Source: Rubrivirga sp. SAORIC476
GTDB taxonomy: Bacteria; Bacteroidota; Rhodothermia; Rhodothermales; Rubricoccaceae
DNA length: 64,000 bases
Assembly: GCF_002283555.1 (NCBI RefSeq)
Contig: NZ_MVOI01000006.1
Span: forward strand, 1 to 64,000
Reading direction: 5' to 3'
The first letter of the stretch is position 1; each line of letters opens with the position of its first letter. The translations under genes and the position numbers were made by a program. Positions 7,032 to 31,497 of this stretch are shown here, piece by piece. Below the pieces are notes generated by a model. That model worked only from the letters and a program-made list of their open reading frames with translations, was not told the origin of the DNA and made no database searches.

Positions 7032-9752
<2,721 letters not shown>

Positions 9753-9780: not shown

Positions 9781-9812
9781 CGCCCGCCTCGGTGACCGTG
9801 CCGAGGCGGGCG
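9781..9812 (+). terminator. acnA terminator hairpin (GCCTCGG palindrome)
   Basis: CGCCCGCCTCGG (9781-9792) pairs with CCGAGGCGGGCG (9801-9812): a perfect 12-bp stem with an 8-nt loop, 28 nt after the acnA stop. It lacks a T-tract. The core belongs to the recurring intergenic palindrome family. Confidence 0.65.
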
Positions 9813-9892
9813 TCGTCGCGTCTGGGGGGAATGGTCCCCCGGTTCCAGTGAGATGCCTCGGCCGTGCCAGGGGGGAGGCACAGGGCCAAGCC

Positions 9893-9900
9893 TACGTTGC
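9893..9900 (+). promoter_or_regulatory. Candidate -7 box for a small RNA
   Basis: TACGTTGC matches the TAnnTT box seen before many genes here. No gene starts on the plus strand downstream; instead a structured stretch ends in a T-tract terminator at 10004-10040. No TTG is found 20 nt upstream. Confidence 0.4.
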
Positions 9901-9906
9901 GGTCCC

Positions 9907-10040
9907 CTTCCCCACGGGTGCCGCCGTCGCTCGCGTCGGTGGCCCCGTTCCGGGCGGGATGACCATCGGGCCGTCTTCGGACGGCTTGCCCGGGACGGCA
10001 CGCCTGCCCTCGGTGCTTCGGCGCCGGGGGCAGTTTTGTT
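9907..10040 (+). ncRNA. Candidate structured small RNA between acnA and the response regulator gene
   Basis: About 134 nt lie between a TAnnTT promoter box (9893-9900) and the only classical T-tract terminator I found (10004-10040). The interval folds: GTGCCG (9918-9923) can pair with CGGCAC (9996-10001), enclosing GCCGTC-TTCG-GACGGC (9970-9985), a perfect UUCG hairpin. No open frame in it resembles a protein, and the following gene is on the other strand, so it is not a leader of that gene. I do not recognise it as 6S, SRP, tmRNA or RNase P RNA. The 5' end is estimated from the box. Alternative: the terminator serves read-through from acnA. Confidence 0.4.
10004..10040 (+). terminator. Intrinsic terminator with T-tract
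   Basis: CTGCCC (10004-10009) pairs with GGGCAG (10028-10033), then a T-G wobble, then CGGTGC-TTCG-GCGCCG (10011-10026): a 13-bp stem with a UUCG loop, followed directly by TTTTGTT (10034-10040). The T-tract orients it to the plus strand, although the hairpin could also serve the response regulator gene converging from 10082. Confidence 0.75.
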
Positions 10041-10081
10041 GCCAGGAGCGGAGCCGACCGCGCTTGCGGATCCGGTGCCCG

Positions 10082-10756
10082 TCAGTCGCCGTCCGGCTGG
10101 AGGACGCCGGTTCGCCACGCCCACGCGACGAGCTGCGGCCGCGTCCGGATGCCCAGCTTGTCGTAGACCGTGTGGACGTGCTTCTTGATGGTGCTCTCCG
10201 TCACGAAGAGGCGGTCGGCGATGTCGAGGTTGCCCAGTCCCTCGGCGACGAGCAGCGCCACCTCGCGCTCCCGAGCGGAGAGGGCAGCGAGCGCGTCCTC
10301 AGCGTCGGAGCGGCGGGTGGCGCGGCCCTGGTCCTGCTGCCGGCGGCGGTGGTAGAGCGCGCTGATGCGGCGGCTGAGCCAGCCCACGTCGCCCCGGCCT
10401 GCGCCGCGGACGGCCTCGGCGATGGCGGCGAGCGGCTCGCGTTTGGAGAGGTAGCCCGCCGCGCCCGCGTCCAGGACGCCCAGGATGTAGGCCTCGTCCT
10501 CGAAGGCGCTCAGCACCAGGACCGCCGTCTCGGAGCCTTGCTCGGCCAGCCGCTCGACCACGTCGAGGCCGGTCAGGCCGGGCATCTCCATGTCGAGAAC
10601 GAGCACGTCCGGCGCGTGCTCGGCGACGACCGCCAGCGCCTCGGGACCGGAGGAGGCCTCGGCGACGACTTCCAGGTCGGGTTCGCGGTCGAGGTGGGCG
10701 CGCAGACCGGCCCGGAACGTCGGGTGGTCGTCGGCGAGGGCGAGGCGGAGCAGCAT
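10082..10756 (-). CDS. NarL/LuxR-family response regulator
   Basis: Cytoplasmic DNA-binding response regulator of 224 residues. The receiver domain (residues 1-120) has the acidic pair Asp9-Asp10, the phosphoacceptor Asp55 in VLVLDMEMPG and the lysine in YLSKREP. A LuxR/GerE helix-turn-helix follows at about 155-215 (LSAREREVALLVAEGLGN ... ESTIKKHVHTVYDKLGI). It lies 72 bp downstream of, and on the same strand as, a histidine kinase with the HisKA_3 dimerisation domain that typically partners NarL-type regulators, so the two almost certainly form one two-component system. Target genes cannot be read from the sequence. Confidence 0.95.
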   Translation of the reverse strand: MLLRLALADDHPTFRAGLRAHLDREPDLEVVAEASSGPEALAVVAEHAPDVLVLDMEMPGLTGLDVVERLAEQGSETAVLVLSAFEDEAYILGVLDAGAAGYLSKREPLAAIAEAVRGAGRGDVGWLSRRISALYHRRRQQDQGRATRRSDAEDALAALSAREREVALLVAEGLGNLDIADRLFVTESTIKKHVHTVYDKLGIRTRPQLVAWAWRTGVLQPDGD

Positions 10757-10828: not shown

Positions 10829-13798
10829 TCACAGCGGCAGCCAGGCGCGGACGCGCGTCCCGGCGCCCGGCGTCGAGGTCACCTCGGCCCGTCCCCCCAG
10901 GGCGTCGGCCCGCTCGCGCAGGCCCGCCAGCCCGAAGTGGTCGCCGCGCACGTGGGCGACGTCCGAGATGTGCGTGTCGAACCCGCAGCCGTCGTCGGCC
11001 ACCTCCACCTCGGCCATGCCGCCTCGCTCCCCGAGGCGGAGCGTGACGGAGGCGGCCTGGGCGTGGCGGCCGACGTTGGCGAGGGCCTCCTGCACGATCC
11101 GGGTCGCGGCGTGCTGCACCTCGACCGGCCACCGGCGCCCGTCGGCGTCGAGAGCCAGCACCACCTCCACGTCGGGCGCGGTGCGCTGGAACCGCTCGGC
11201 GGCGGCACGGACGGCCGCCGCGGCGCCGAACGTCCCGACGTGCGGCAGGCGGATGTCGGCCAGCACGCTGCGCAACTCGTCGGACGCCTCGTCCAGCGTG
11301 GAGCGGACTGTGTTCACCTCGGCCCGCTCCGCCTCAGGGACGAGCGTCGCGAGGCGGTCGAGGTCGTGCCCGACGCGGTACAGGTGCTGCATGGTGCCGT
11401 CGTGGAGTTCGCGTGCCAGACGGATGCGCTCGGCTTCTCGGCTCCCCGCCAGCCGCCGCGCGACCTCCGCGGCGTCGGCCCGGCGTCGCTCGCTGCGGCG
11501 GACGCTCACCCAGCCCAGCCCGCCGACGCCCGCGAGCACCAGCAGCCCGAGCAGCCCCTGCACCGCGCGGCGCTCCCACCACACGGGCGGCACCTCCACG
11601 TGCAGGCGTGAGGGCTCGGGGGCGAACACCCCGGCGTGGTTGCTCCCGACCACCTCGAACGTGTACGTGCCGGGCGGAAGCGCGGCATAGCGCGCCTCGG
11701 GCGCCGCCCCGTCGGTCTCGGTCCACGCGGTCTCCAGCGGGGCGAGGCGGTACCGGTACCGGTTGCGCCTGGGTCGCGTGTAGTCGAGCGCCGCGAAGCG
11801 GACCGCGAAGCGGCGCCCGGAGGGGGCCAGCCGGAGCGTGTCGCCGGACGCCATCGATCGATGAACCAGGCTTCCCCGCTCGACCTGCGAGAAGCGCACC
11901 GGCGGACGGAACGTAGACGGACGGACCTCGGTTGGGCGGAAGGCCGTGTAGCCTCCCGGACCGCCCATCCGGATGGTCCCGTCGGCGTCGCGGTGGGACG
12001 ACATCAGGTCCACGATGTCGCCGTGGAGGCCGTCGGCCTCGGAGAAGGTGACGACGTCGCGCGTGACCAGGTCGAGGCGGGCGATGCCGCGGTCGGTGCC
12101 CAGCCACAGCGCGCCGTCTCCGGCCTCGATCCGGTGGACCACGTTGGACGGCAGGCCGTCGGCGATGCGCAGGCAATCGGTCTCGTCGGTGGCCGGGACG
12201 TACCGGCAGGCCCCGGAGCCGACGGTCGCCAGCCACAGCGCGCCCGGGTCGGCAGGGCTCTCGGCGACGTGCCAGACGATCGGCGTCGCGAGGTCTCGGC
12301 TGACGCCGGTCCTGTGGAACGCATTCTTGCTGGGGAAGAACCGGTCGAGGCCGCCATCGGACCCGACCCAGACGCGTCCGCTGCGGTCGGTGTAGATCAC
12401 GTTCACGGCCGCGTCCGCGAGCCCGTCCCCGCCGCCCTCGCCTTCGCGGAACGCGCGCCACTGCTCGTTTTCGCGCAGCCCCATGCCGTACGATGTCGCG
12501 ACCCACAGACGCCCGTCCCGTTCCACGATGTCCCGAATCGGTAAGCTGTTCTGGACCTGTAGCGCAGAGCCGAGGGTCTGGTTGAGGAGGTCGGCCGGCT
12601 CGGTCCGCCCGGTCTCCGGCCAGAAGCGCCACATGCCGCTCCGCTTGCTGCCGAGCCACAGACCGCCTCCCTCGGCCGGGGAGACACGCCAGATTGCGCT
12701 CTGGTTGAGGTCCGATCCGGTCCGGTAGCCCTCGACGGACCCGTCCGCGCGGCGGCGGAACAGGCCGCCGTTGGTGGCCACCCAGACGTCGTCGCCGAGC
12801 GTGGTCAGGCCGTTGACGCGTCCGTCTCCCAGGCCCTCGGCCGTGGTCACCGCGTGGAAGCCGGACCGAGGCGGGGTCCAGCGGTGAAGCCCCTGCTCCG
12901 TCCCGATCCAGACGCCGCCCTGCCGGTCCTCGAACAGCGCCATCACATCGCGCCCGACCAGCCCGGCCTCTCGCTCTATCGCCACCACCGTATCCCGAGC
13001 CGGCAGGTAGAGCCGGAGCCCGGACTCGGACCCGAGCCACGCGCGTCCCGGCGTAACGAGAGTCTGGGACGACCGCCCGACCACGTCCAGTGGCCATCTG
13101 GTGACGAGGCGGCGCTCGCGCCCGTCCACACGGACCACGCGTCCATCCATCAGAACCGCGCGCAAGGCCCCGTCTTCGATCCACCCGGCTCGGGGGGCGG
13201 TCTCCGGTCCGTCGGTCTGCGCAGGGCGGCAGGTGTCTGTCGTGAGGGTGAGGTTGCAGTCCCGCAGCCACACCGCCTCCCCGACGCGAACCATGGGCGA
13301 GGCGGTCGGCCCCCCCTGGAAGACCCGCCGAGCGGTCCCGTCGGGGCGGAGGTGGATGGCCCCTTCTCGGGCCGACAGCCACAGGCCCCCGGCATCCGAG
13401 TCGAGAAACCGGACGGCCGTGACGCCCAGGGAGTCGAGGGCTGCCTCGGCCACCTCCTCGAACCGGTCCGCGGCTCGGGTCAGCCGGGCGAGGCCGCCCT
13501 CTGTGGCCGCCCACACTGCCCCGGTCGCGTCGGCGTGGACGGCGTACACGACGTTCGAAGGAAGCCCGCCCTCGCCCTCCTGCCAGACGTCGAAGCGGAC
13601 GCCGTCGTAGCGTGCCACGCCGTCGTTGGTGCCCACCCACAGGAAGCCCAGCGAGTCCTGCGTGATGGAGAACACGCGCGGGCTGGGCAGGCCGTCCCCG
13701 AGTCCGATGTGCCGGAGGCGGACGGTACCCGCGGTCTGGGCGGACACGGCGCTCGCGCACGCGAACACGCAGGTTGCGAGCAGAATCCAGACGCGCAT
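10829..13798 (-). CDS. Histidine kinase with periplasmic beta-propeller sensor (Reg_prop/Y_Y_Y)
   Basis: Membrane sensor kinase of 989 residues. After a signal peptide (residues 1-20) come many propeller blades of the two-component regulator type, recognisable by repeats such as GFLWVGTNDGVARYDG and GGVWIGTEQGLHRW, covering about residues 25-620. A Y_Y_Y domain follows (LPPGTYTFEVVGSN), then one membrane helix (GLLGLLVLAGVGGLGWV). The HisKA_3 box ARELHDGTMQH places the phosphorylated histidine at residue 799, and the ATPase domain shows VQEALANVGRHA and DDGCGF/GLAGLRERA. In Bacteroidota such sensors often read periplasmic saccharides, usually as one-protein hybrids; here the regulator is a separate downstream gene. 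The ligand is unknown. A TAGCTTCG box lies 19 nt before the ATG. Confidence 0.94.
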   Translation of the reverse strand: MRVWILLATCVFACASAVSAQTAGTVRLRHIGLGDGLPSPRVFSITQDSLGFLWVGTNDGVARYDGVRFDVWQEGEGGLPSNVVYAVHADATGAVWAATEGGLARLTRAADRFEEVAEAALDSLGVTAVRFLDSDAGGLWLSAREGAIHLRPDGTARRVFQGGPTASPMVRVGEAVWLRDCNLTLTTDTCRPAQTDGPETAPRAGWIEDGALRAVLMDGRVVRVDGRERRLVTRWPLDVVGRSSQTLVTPGRAWLGSESGLRLYLPARDTVVAIEREAGLVGRDVMALFEDRQGGVWIGTEQGLHRWTPPRSGFHAVTTAEGLGDGRVNGLTTLGDDVWVATNGGLFRRRADGSVEGYRTGSDLNQSAIWRVSPAEGGGLWLGSKRSGMWRFWPETGRTEPADLLNQTLGSALQVQNSLPIRDIVERDGRLWVATSYGMGLRENEQWRAFREGEGGGDGLADAAVNVIYTDRSGRVWVGSDGGLDRFFPSKNAFHRTGVSRDLATPIVWHVAESPADPGALWLATVGSGACRYVPATDETDCLRIADGLPSNVVHRIEAGDGALWLGTDRGIARLDLVTRDVVTFSEADGLHGDIVDLMSSHRDADGTIRMGGPGGYTAFRPTEVRPSTFRPPVRFSQVERGSLVHRSMASGDTLRLAPSGRRFAVRFAALDYTRPRRNRYRYRLAPLETAWTETDGAAPEARYAALPPGTYTFEVVGSNHAGVFAPEPSRLHVEVPPVWWERRAVQGLLGLLVLAGVGGLGWVSVRRSERRRADAAEVARRLAGSREAERIRLARELHDGTMQHLYRVGHDLDRLATLVPEAERAEVNTVRSTLDEASDELRSVLADIRLPHVGTFGAAAAVRAAAERFQRTAPDVEVVLALDADGRRWPVEVQHAATRIVQEALANVGRHAQAASVTLRLGERGGMAEVEVADDGCGFDTHISDVAHVRGDHFGLAGLRERADALGGRAEVTSTPGAGTRVRAWLPL

Positions 13799-29895: not shown

Positions 29896-29958
29896 CTCGG
29901 GGGCGGAACGGCGCACGGCGGGCGGCGTGAAGGGACGCCAACAGAAAACCGTCCCCCG

Positions 29959-31497
29959 ATGGCAGACGCCCCCCAGATTTCGACGCTCGGCGACCTCAAG
30001 GCGTCGGGCTACCGGCCCCGCTCCGTCAAGGACGAGATCCGCGCTAACCTGATCGCCCGCCTCCAGTCTGGCGACGACGTGTTTCCCGGCATCCTCGGCT
30101 TCGACCGGACCGTCATCCCGCAGGTCCAGAATGCGCTGCTGGGTCGCCACGACTTCATCCTGCTCGGCCTCCGCGGCCAGGCCAAGAGCCGCATCGTGCG
30201 GATGCTGCCGTCGCTCCTCGACGAGTGGGTGCCCGAGGTCGAAGGCTCCGAGATCCACGACGACCCGCTGGACCCGGTCTCGAAGTACGCCCGCGACCTG
30301 ATCCACGACCAGGGCGACGAGACGCCGGTCTCCTGGCTCCACCGGTCCGCCCGCTACGGCGAGAAGCTGGCCACGCCCGACACGTCCATCGCCGACCTCA
30401 TCGGCGACATCGACCCGATCAAGGCGGCCACGAGGAAGCTGACCTACGCCGACGAGGAGGTGATCCACTTCGGCATCATCCCGCGCACGCACCGGGGCAT
30501 CTTCGCCATCAACGAGCTGCCGGACCTCCAGCCGCGCATCCAGGTGGGCCTGCTCAACATCATGGAGGAGCAGGACATCCAGATCCGTGGCTTCAACGTC
30601 CGCATCCCGATCGACGTGCTGATGGTGTACACGGCCAACCCGGAGGACTATACCAACCGCGGCTCGATCATCACGCCGCTCAAGGACCGCATCGACTCCC
30701 AGATCCTGACCCACTACCCGCGCGAGCTGGGCATCGGCGTCGAGATCACGCGGCAGGAGGCGTGGGCCGAGCGCGACGGCGCGGTGACCGTCCACGTCCC
30801 GCACGTCTTTCGGCAGATCGTCGAGCAGGTGGCCTTCGAGGCGCGGGCCTCCGAGTACGTCGATCAGAAGTCGGGCGTCTCGGCGCGGCTGACGCGGGCG
30901 GCGCTGGAGGACCTAGTCTCGGCCGCCGAGCGGCGCGCGCTGATCCACGGCGAATCTGAGACCACGCTCCGCGCGAGCGACCTCGAAGCCATCGAGCCCG
31001 CCGTGACGGGCAAGGTGGAGCTGGTCTACGAGGGCGAGCAGGAGGGCGCGCAGGGCGTCGCCCGGGCGCTCGTCGGCAAGGCGGTCTCTACCATCGTCAA
31101 GACCTACCTCCCGGACCCGACCGCCAAGGGGTCCGGCGCCGACGGTGGCCGCGCGGCCTACCGCGAGGTCCTCGGCTGGTTCTCGAAGGGCCACACGGTC
31201 GACCTCGACACCGACCTCCGCTTCGCCGAGTACGTCCAGCAGCTCGACCGCGTCGAGGGGCTCGGGGCGCTCGTGGACGCGCACACCGCGCCGCCGTCAC
31301 CCGCCGAGAAGGCGTCGATGATGGAGCTGGCGCTGGAGATGCTCCACCAGCACTCGCTGCTCGGCAAGGAGGTCGCCGACGACGGCGCCAGCTACGCCGA
31401 CATGATGGGTTCCGTCCTCTCCGGCCTCGGCTCCTTCGGCGCGGACGACGACGACGACCTCGACGACGACGAGGAGGACTACCGTCGCTTCGGCTGA
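29959..31497 (+). CDS. Magnesium-chelatase subunit I-like AAA+ ATPase
   Basis: 512-residue cytoplasmic AAA+ protein. Walker A is residues 70-77 (GLRGQAKS), a variant with Ala before the Lys. The segment GIFAINELPDL stands at Walker B with Asn in place of the usual Asp but with the Glu kept; IPIDVLMVYTANPEDYTNRG and ITPLKDRIDSQI are the sensor-1 and helical regions. All of this matches the stand-alone BchI/ChlI-like proteins common in Bacteroidota, which usually pair with a VWA protein as a MoxR-like chaperone. No VWA gene is next to it here; a GNAT gene follows after 3 bp. The C-terminus is an Asp-rich tail (ADDDDDLDDDEEDYRRFG). True chlorophyll synthesis is not implied. Start at 29959 chosen because upstream codons look non-coding. 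Confidence 0.9.
   Translation: MADAPQISTLGDLKASGYRPRSVKDEIRANLIARLQSGDDVFPGILGFDRTVIPQVQNALLGRHDFILLGLRGQAKSRIVRMLPSLLDEWVPEVEGSEIHDDPLDPVSKYARDLIHDQGDETPVSWLHRSARYGEKLATPDTSIADLIGDIDPIKAATRKLTYADEEVIHFGIIPRTHRGIFAINELPDLQPRIQVGLLNIMEEQDIQIRGFNVRIPIDVLMVYTANPEDYTNRGSIITPLKDRIDSQILTHYPRELGIGVEITRQEAWAERDGAVTVHVPHVFRQIVEQVAFEARASEYVDQKSGVSARLTRAALEDLVSAAERRALIHGESETTLRASDLEAIEPAVTGKVELVYEGEQEGAQGVARALVGKAVSTIVKTYLPDPTAKGSGADGGRAAYREVLGWFSKGHTVDLDTDLRFAEYVQQLDRVEGLGALVDAHTAPPSPAEKASMMELALEMLHQHSLLGKEVADDGASYADMMGSVLSGLGSFGADDDDDLDDDEEDYRRFG

Follow-up and report, generated by a model that had tools for sequence, protein, structure and literature searches.

GibS of Bacteroides thetaiotaomicron is an intergenic small RNA of about 145 nt that has its own promoter and a Rho-independent terminator. 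It is conserved in its genus, is relatively unfolded and carries a long, single-stranded, conserved 5' seed, and its targets are proven (PMC7366714). B. thetaiotaomicron has no Hfq, and 27 of its 49 high-confidence intergenic small RNAs are strain-specific (PMC7366714). The -7 box of Bacteroidetes promoters is TAnnTTTG, and a -33 motif is not always present (PMC7366714). We found no literature on small RNAs in Rhodothermota and Salinibacter.

The candidate RNA described here lies in a 64,000-nucleotide stretch (the window) of contig C6, which is 72% G+C and belongs to a genome of 4.48 Mb. The genome is related to Rubrivirga, with a Rubrivirga MAG among its near relatives. The candidate sits in a 329-nt gap between two convergent genes. 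The upstream neighbour on the same strand is acnA, which encodes aconitase (7032-9752, plus strand; Pfam Aconitase, 3e-169, and Aconitase_C) and has its stop at 9752. The convergent neighbour is a LuxR-type response regulator gene (10082-10756, minus strand; Pfam Response_reg and GerE), which has its stop at 10082 and is adjoined by a gene for a histidine kinase with a beta-propeller sensor (10829-13798, minus strand; Pfam Reg_prop, Y_Y_Y and HisKA_3). Our calibration sample was 464 kb of the same contig, taken in stretches, in which a codon-usage model called 400 genes, roughly one tenth of those in the genome. The acnA/regulator gap is among the longest of the 66 convergent gaps in this survey.

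We believe, with a probability of roughly 0.55, that the element in this gap forms a short, non-coding transcription unit of its own on the plus strand, specific to the species or to close strains. Judging from its promoter-terminator pairing, the predicted transcript would span 9905-10040 (plus strand; about 131-137 nt); we placed its start a few nt 3' of the -10 box and its end at the T-tract. The original prediction held that no coding frame fits here, and this was correct: no gene was called across the candidate, and the overlapping open frames have no Pfam match, for which reason a coding remnant was rejected as well. The region holds a 14-codon GTG frame, and nothing recommends that frame as coding.

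Transcription of the unit would depend on a -10 box, TACGTTG (9893-9899, plus strand), which is present as originally claimed and matches the box used in this genome. Boxes of the type TAnnTTG are specific to this genome and are recognized by their enrichment upstream of genes; the tmRNA gene is preceded by TACGTTG too. In the 464 kb, TAnnTTG occurs 45 times in intergenic DNA versus four times in genes, and 35 of the 45 intergenic occurrences lie upstream of co-oriented genes. Seven of the other ten fall in one AT-rich island, and the rest are the candidate, a site at 280705 and a site at 364254. At positions of this kind, the background amounts to about 0.07 boxes per kb. The site at 280705, which lies outside the AT-rich island, lacks a strong terminator and is possibly a false box; thus, chance TAnnTTG boxes do occur. 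No -35 consensus was seen in 29 aligned TAnnTTG sites upstream of genes. Because ordinary promoters of this genome show no such consensus, the missing -35 is no objection to the candidate promoter, and we dropped it as an argument. The TAnnTTG box without a -35 resembles the Bacteroidetes -7 box TAnnTTTG (PMC7366714). As for the AT-rich island (C6:282000-289000), it has almost no genes called by the host codon model and has tRNA-Arg, tRNA-Pro and tRNA-Cys genes at its edge; it is probably a mobile element.

At its other end, the element carries an intrinsic terminator, a 13-bp stem-loop (10004-10033, plus strand) followed by TTTTGTT. The full sequence at 10004-10040 is CTGCCCTCGGTGC-UUCG-GCGCCGGGGGCAG plus TTTTGTT. 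This terminator is strand-specific, with a fold energy of -26.2 kcal/mol on the plus strand versus -18.8 on the minus strand. Two of its pairs are G-U, which turn into A-C mismatches on the minus strand, so that the 13-bp stem is continuous solely as plus-strand RNA. When all hairpins followed by T-tracts are counted in the 464 kb, their number equals chance; strong intergenic ones are rare (n = 16). The statement that this is the sole T-tract terminator in 64 kb holds for a strong hairpin plus T-tract, and a second intergenic survey match in the window, at 29950-29968 on the minus strand, is a weak one that overlaps the end of a gene.

Box and terminator were found together more often than our controls would predict. 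Four of the 16 strong intergenic terminators have a same-strand TAnnTTG 30-250 nt upstream. Besides the candidate, these pairs belong to a tRNA-Ala gene, to a leader with Met codons before a gene of Cys/Met metabolism, and to a conserved RNA downstream of atpC. When TAnnTTG was sought on the opposite strand or downstream, 0-1 pairings resulted, and permuted seven-letter motifs (ending in TTG, TAG or ATG) also gave 0-1; the six-letter permutation ATnnTT, which is less specific, gave four. From the background rate, about 0.015 chance TAnnTTG boxes are expected per terminator, and the candidate pair exceeds this. As the numbers are small (4/16), the pairing statistic is support and not proof. Nevertheless, the other three pairs place the candidate among genuine short transcription units, and because the pairing beats its controls, it is likely that a short non-coding RNA of about 130 nt is made here. 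The calibration on this genome thus strengthens the small RNA reading beyond what the original prediction could show.

The main rival to an autonomous transcript is that the terminator forms the distal 3' end of the acnA mRNA. RNA polymerase would then pass a T-less hairpin just beyond the gene and stop at 10004-10040, leaving a long 3' untranslated region, and the box would be a chance match. The terminator does share its strand with acnA and lies 251 nt past it with no intervening gene, and the 14-bp hairpin just past the acnA stop (9781-9812, approximate to a few bases; plus strand) has no T-tract. However, a chance box at the candidate spacing is unlikely because of the low background of about 0.07 per kb. 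Other T-tract terminators at mRNA ends in the 464-kb survey mostly lie 20-112 nt past the stop codon, and those more than 150 nt from an upstream stop are mostly in leaders just before the next gene. Moreover, three congeners finish acnA with the near hairpin alone, which is followed by other genes. Taken together, we consider a distal acnA end somewhat unlikely.

The hairpin next to acnA is one of a dispersed set. The sequence GCCCGCCTCGGTGACCGTGCCGAGGCGGGC, without a T-tract, occurs at about 9781-9812, at C6:74799 and 245952, and in at least a dozen other places. The look-alike copies that we checked on C6 are mostly 8-33 nt past stop codons. It may be a recurrent gene-end element that ends or protects mRNAs.

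It had been argued that the neighbouring transcripts end before the element on both sides. This was not confirmed. acnA does have the near hairpin past its stop, but that hairpin lacks a T-tract. On the regulator side, nothing terminator-like was found on the minus strand from the stop of the gene (10082) up to the element. Thus, the regulator mRNA probably runs into the element. The contention that the element needs its own explanation is weakened accordingly, since it rested in part on the mistaken idea that both neighbours terminate. As the regulator mRNA lacks its own terminator ahead of the element, the unit probably marks a boundary between convergent genes.

We turn next to what the body of the RNA might contribute. 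It is predicted to fold on the plus strand into hairpin 1 (9920-9943), with 7 bp plus 2 bp and a CUCG loop, and hairpin 2 (9945-9998), a long stem with an inner UUCG hairpin at 9970-9985. The inner hairpin is as perfect as had been noted (GCCGTC-UUCG-GACGGC). The proposed closing stem of GTGCCG (9918-9923) and CGGCAC (9996-10001) is indeed complementary, but it is absent from the minimum-energy fold, which prefers the two local hairpins at 9920-9943 and about 9945-9998. The foldable sequence had been offered as evidence, and in this respect the original prediction failed. The candidate as a whole has a folding z of about -3.2 to -3.6, which comes mostly from the terminator. The body without the terminator (9899-10003) is not unusually stable (z -1.4); among 1320 intergenic windows, 20% have a z that low or lower. 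After this control, folding stability was rejected as evidence for the body.

It is possible that the RNA acts in trans in the manner of GibS, using a single-stranded 5' segment to pair with its target mRNAs and doing so without Hfq; this overlaps with the independent unit that we favour. The size is near that of GibS (about 145 nt), the promoter and terminator are its own, and the C-rich 5' segment is partly unpaired. Hfq was not found in the nine family genomes searched, and the family would in this resemble Bacteroides (PMC7366714). However, the 5' segment pairs with translation starts worse than its own shuffles do (in 400 genes, roughly one tenth of the total), and no conserved seed emerged from 60 relatives searched by blastn and 30 by covariance model. 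We rate a GibS-type role as quite unlikely. Blocking of ribosome-binding sites by the C-rich 5' tail was considered separately and is not supported, the pairing with starts being weaker than that of the shuffles.

Conservation was a point on which the original prediction had staked itself, and neither blastn nor the covariance model yielded a homologue. In a blastn search of 9860-10045 against 60 relatives, only three short matches appeared, in relatives G002 and G019, and they were judged to be chance matches in coding sequence. A single-sequence covariance model of 9915-10003 found only itself in 30 genomes. Regions after regulator homologues elsewhere hold no such element. The Rfam scan that had been recommended gave no family match at gathering or relaxed thresholds, and the best sub-threshold plus-strand matches were noise (E about 1). 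The 6S and 6S-Flavo RNA models (RF00013 and RF01685) had no match in this genome at E <= 1, and searches of plasmid and viral collections returned nothing. As a positive control, the atpC-downstream RNA was recovered by blastn from all three congeners, with identities of 90-98%. Since the same kind of search found that RNA, the negative result for the candidate is meaningful at the genus level. In sum, the part of the small RNA reading that concerns its own promoter and terminator signals stands, and homologues are missing.

A further alternative takes the element for transcriptional noise or for the leftover of a rearrangement. In the latter case, the regulator/kinase pair would have come beside acnA, and box and terminator would be remnants of a lost leader or gene. 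Consistent with this, other genes follow acnA in the congeners, and the best family match of the regulator is only 54-56% identical and is not next to acnA. Attenuator leaders of the same anatomy exist in this genome as well. Yet all 13 pairs of the terminator stem are unbroken, and one would expect such a stem to be lost from a remnant in decay. We regard a relic as unlikely. It is also conceivable, although very doubtful, that a young species-specific regulatory RNA came with this accessory sensor-kinase/response-regulator pair and controls the pair or the aconitase gene without Hfq.

Our preferred model for the independent unit is as follows. RNA polymerase would start a few bases past the TACGTTG box at 9893-9899 and copy about 130 nt, and the RNA would fold into two GC-rich hairpins before transcription stops at the strong terminator (10004-10040). 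The transcript would converge on the tail of the response-regulator mRNA, and a local effect seems most likely. With its one-way terminator, the unit would probably separate the convergent genes, both by overlapping the regulator 3' tail in antisense and by blocking read-through that comes from acnA. We infer both transcription and role from sequence signals, and the label 'regulatory small RNA' is not established for this element. We discarded attenuation of a downstream gene, since the gene that follows is encoded on the opposite strand.

The survey of contig C6 also brought other RNAs and leaders to light. The atpC-downstream RNA (C6:364254-364356; RNA 364262-364356) is uncatalogued, about 85-90 nt long and without an Rfam match. 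Its layout is a TTGACC-N17-TACCTTG promoter, then ATCGGGTTGAGCACGCCCAGCCCCGCCC...CTCCCCGAC, then a T-tract terminator. Among the same three congeners, C-terminal protein segments of acnA are only 81-83% identical, against 92-98% for this RNA. The RNA is also found after atpC in another genus (G004), where its middle has diverged and its stems are kept.

One leader attenuator (C6:243600-243924) encodes the peptide MTSLRPALASTPYSGYWFMRSAGRRHSG, which contains a Tyr-Trp-Phe run, followed by a T-tract terminator; it precedes a fused chorismate mutase-prephenate dehydratase-DAHP synthase gene. Another (C6:278268-278520, minus strand) has the Met-rich peptide MRCMGMIMCMARSGQERSRLGRR and a T-tract terminator before a gene for a PLP enzyme of Cys/Met metabolism. 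At C6:149746-150058, a T-tract terminator lies just 5' of an asparagine synthase gene. A promoter-like TTGACC...TATCGT accompanies it, as does what may be a leader frame containing Asn (SINLVNRNL, read by eye); this is a probable asparagine attenuator. Finally, a strong hairpin with eight T's (C6:124287-124324, minus strand) occupies a divergent gap, roughly 500 nt away from the gene for tmRNA, and is possibly another orphan RNA end.

These observations provide a recipe for this high-GC genome: a TAnnTTG box combined with a rare T-tract terminator. Besides a tRNA and a leader attenuator, the recipe recovers at least one RNA that is conserved but uncatalogued. The candidate fits it too and is thus a reasonable entry for a future transcriptome. 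On its own, the candidate is one predicted, unconserved orphan transcript, and the atpC-downstream RNA is the better lead.

How, then, does the candidate compare with known systems? It is similar to 6S RNA in size and in being short and non-coding. However, 6S RNA folds into a rod with a central bubble and paired ends, whereas the candidate is predicted to form two separate hairpins. With the amino-acid leader attenuators of the same genome it shares a TA-box promoter-like site, a length in the range of about 100-250 nt and a T-tract terminator. Those leaders encode a leader peptide and are followed by a biosynthetic gene; the gene next to the candidate is on the other strand. The atpC-downstream RNA is alike in its TAnnTTG box, its short non-coding body, its T-tract terminator and, in this genome, its convergent gap, but it is kept at 92-98% identity in the three congeners and can be traced to a further genus of the family, whereas the candidate has no relative. 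Compared with GibS, the candidate is GC-rich, strongly folded and unconserved, and it is known from sequence alone. Its likeness to the small RNAs of B. thetaiotaomicron as a group is broader and extends to its intergenic position, its promoter and terminator, its length of about 130-145 nt, the absence of Hfq and a restricted distribution, as those RNAs are often strain-specific.
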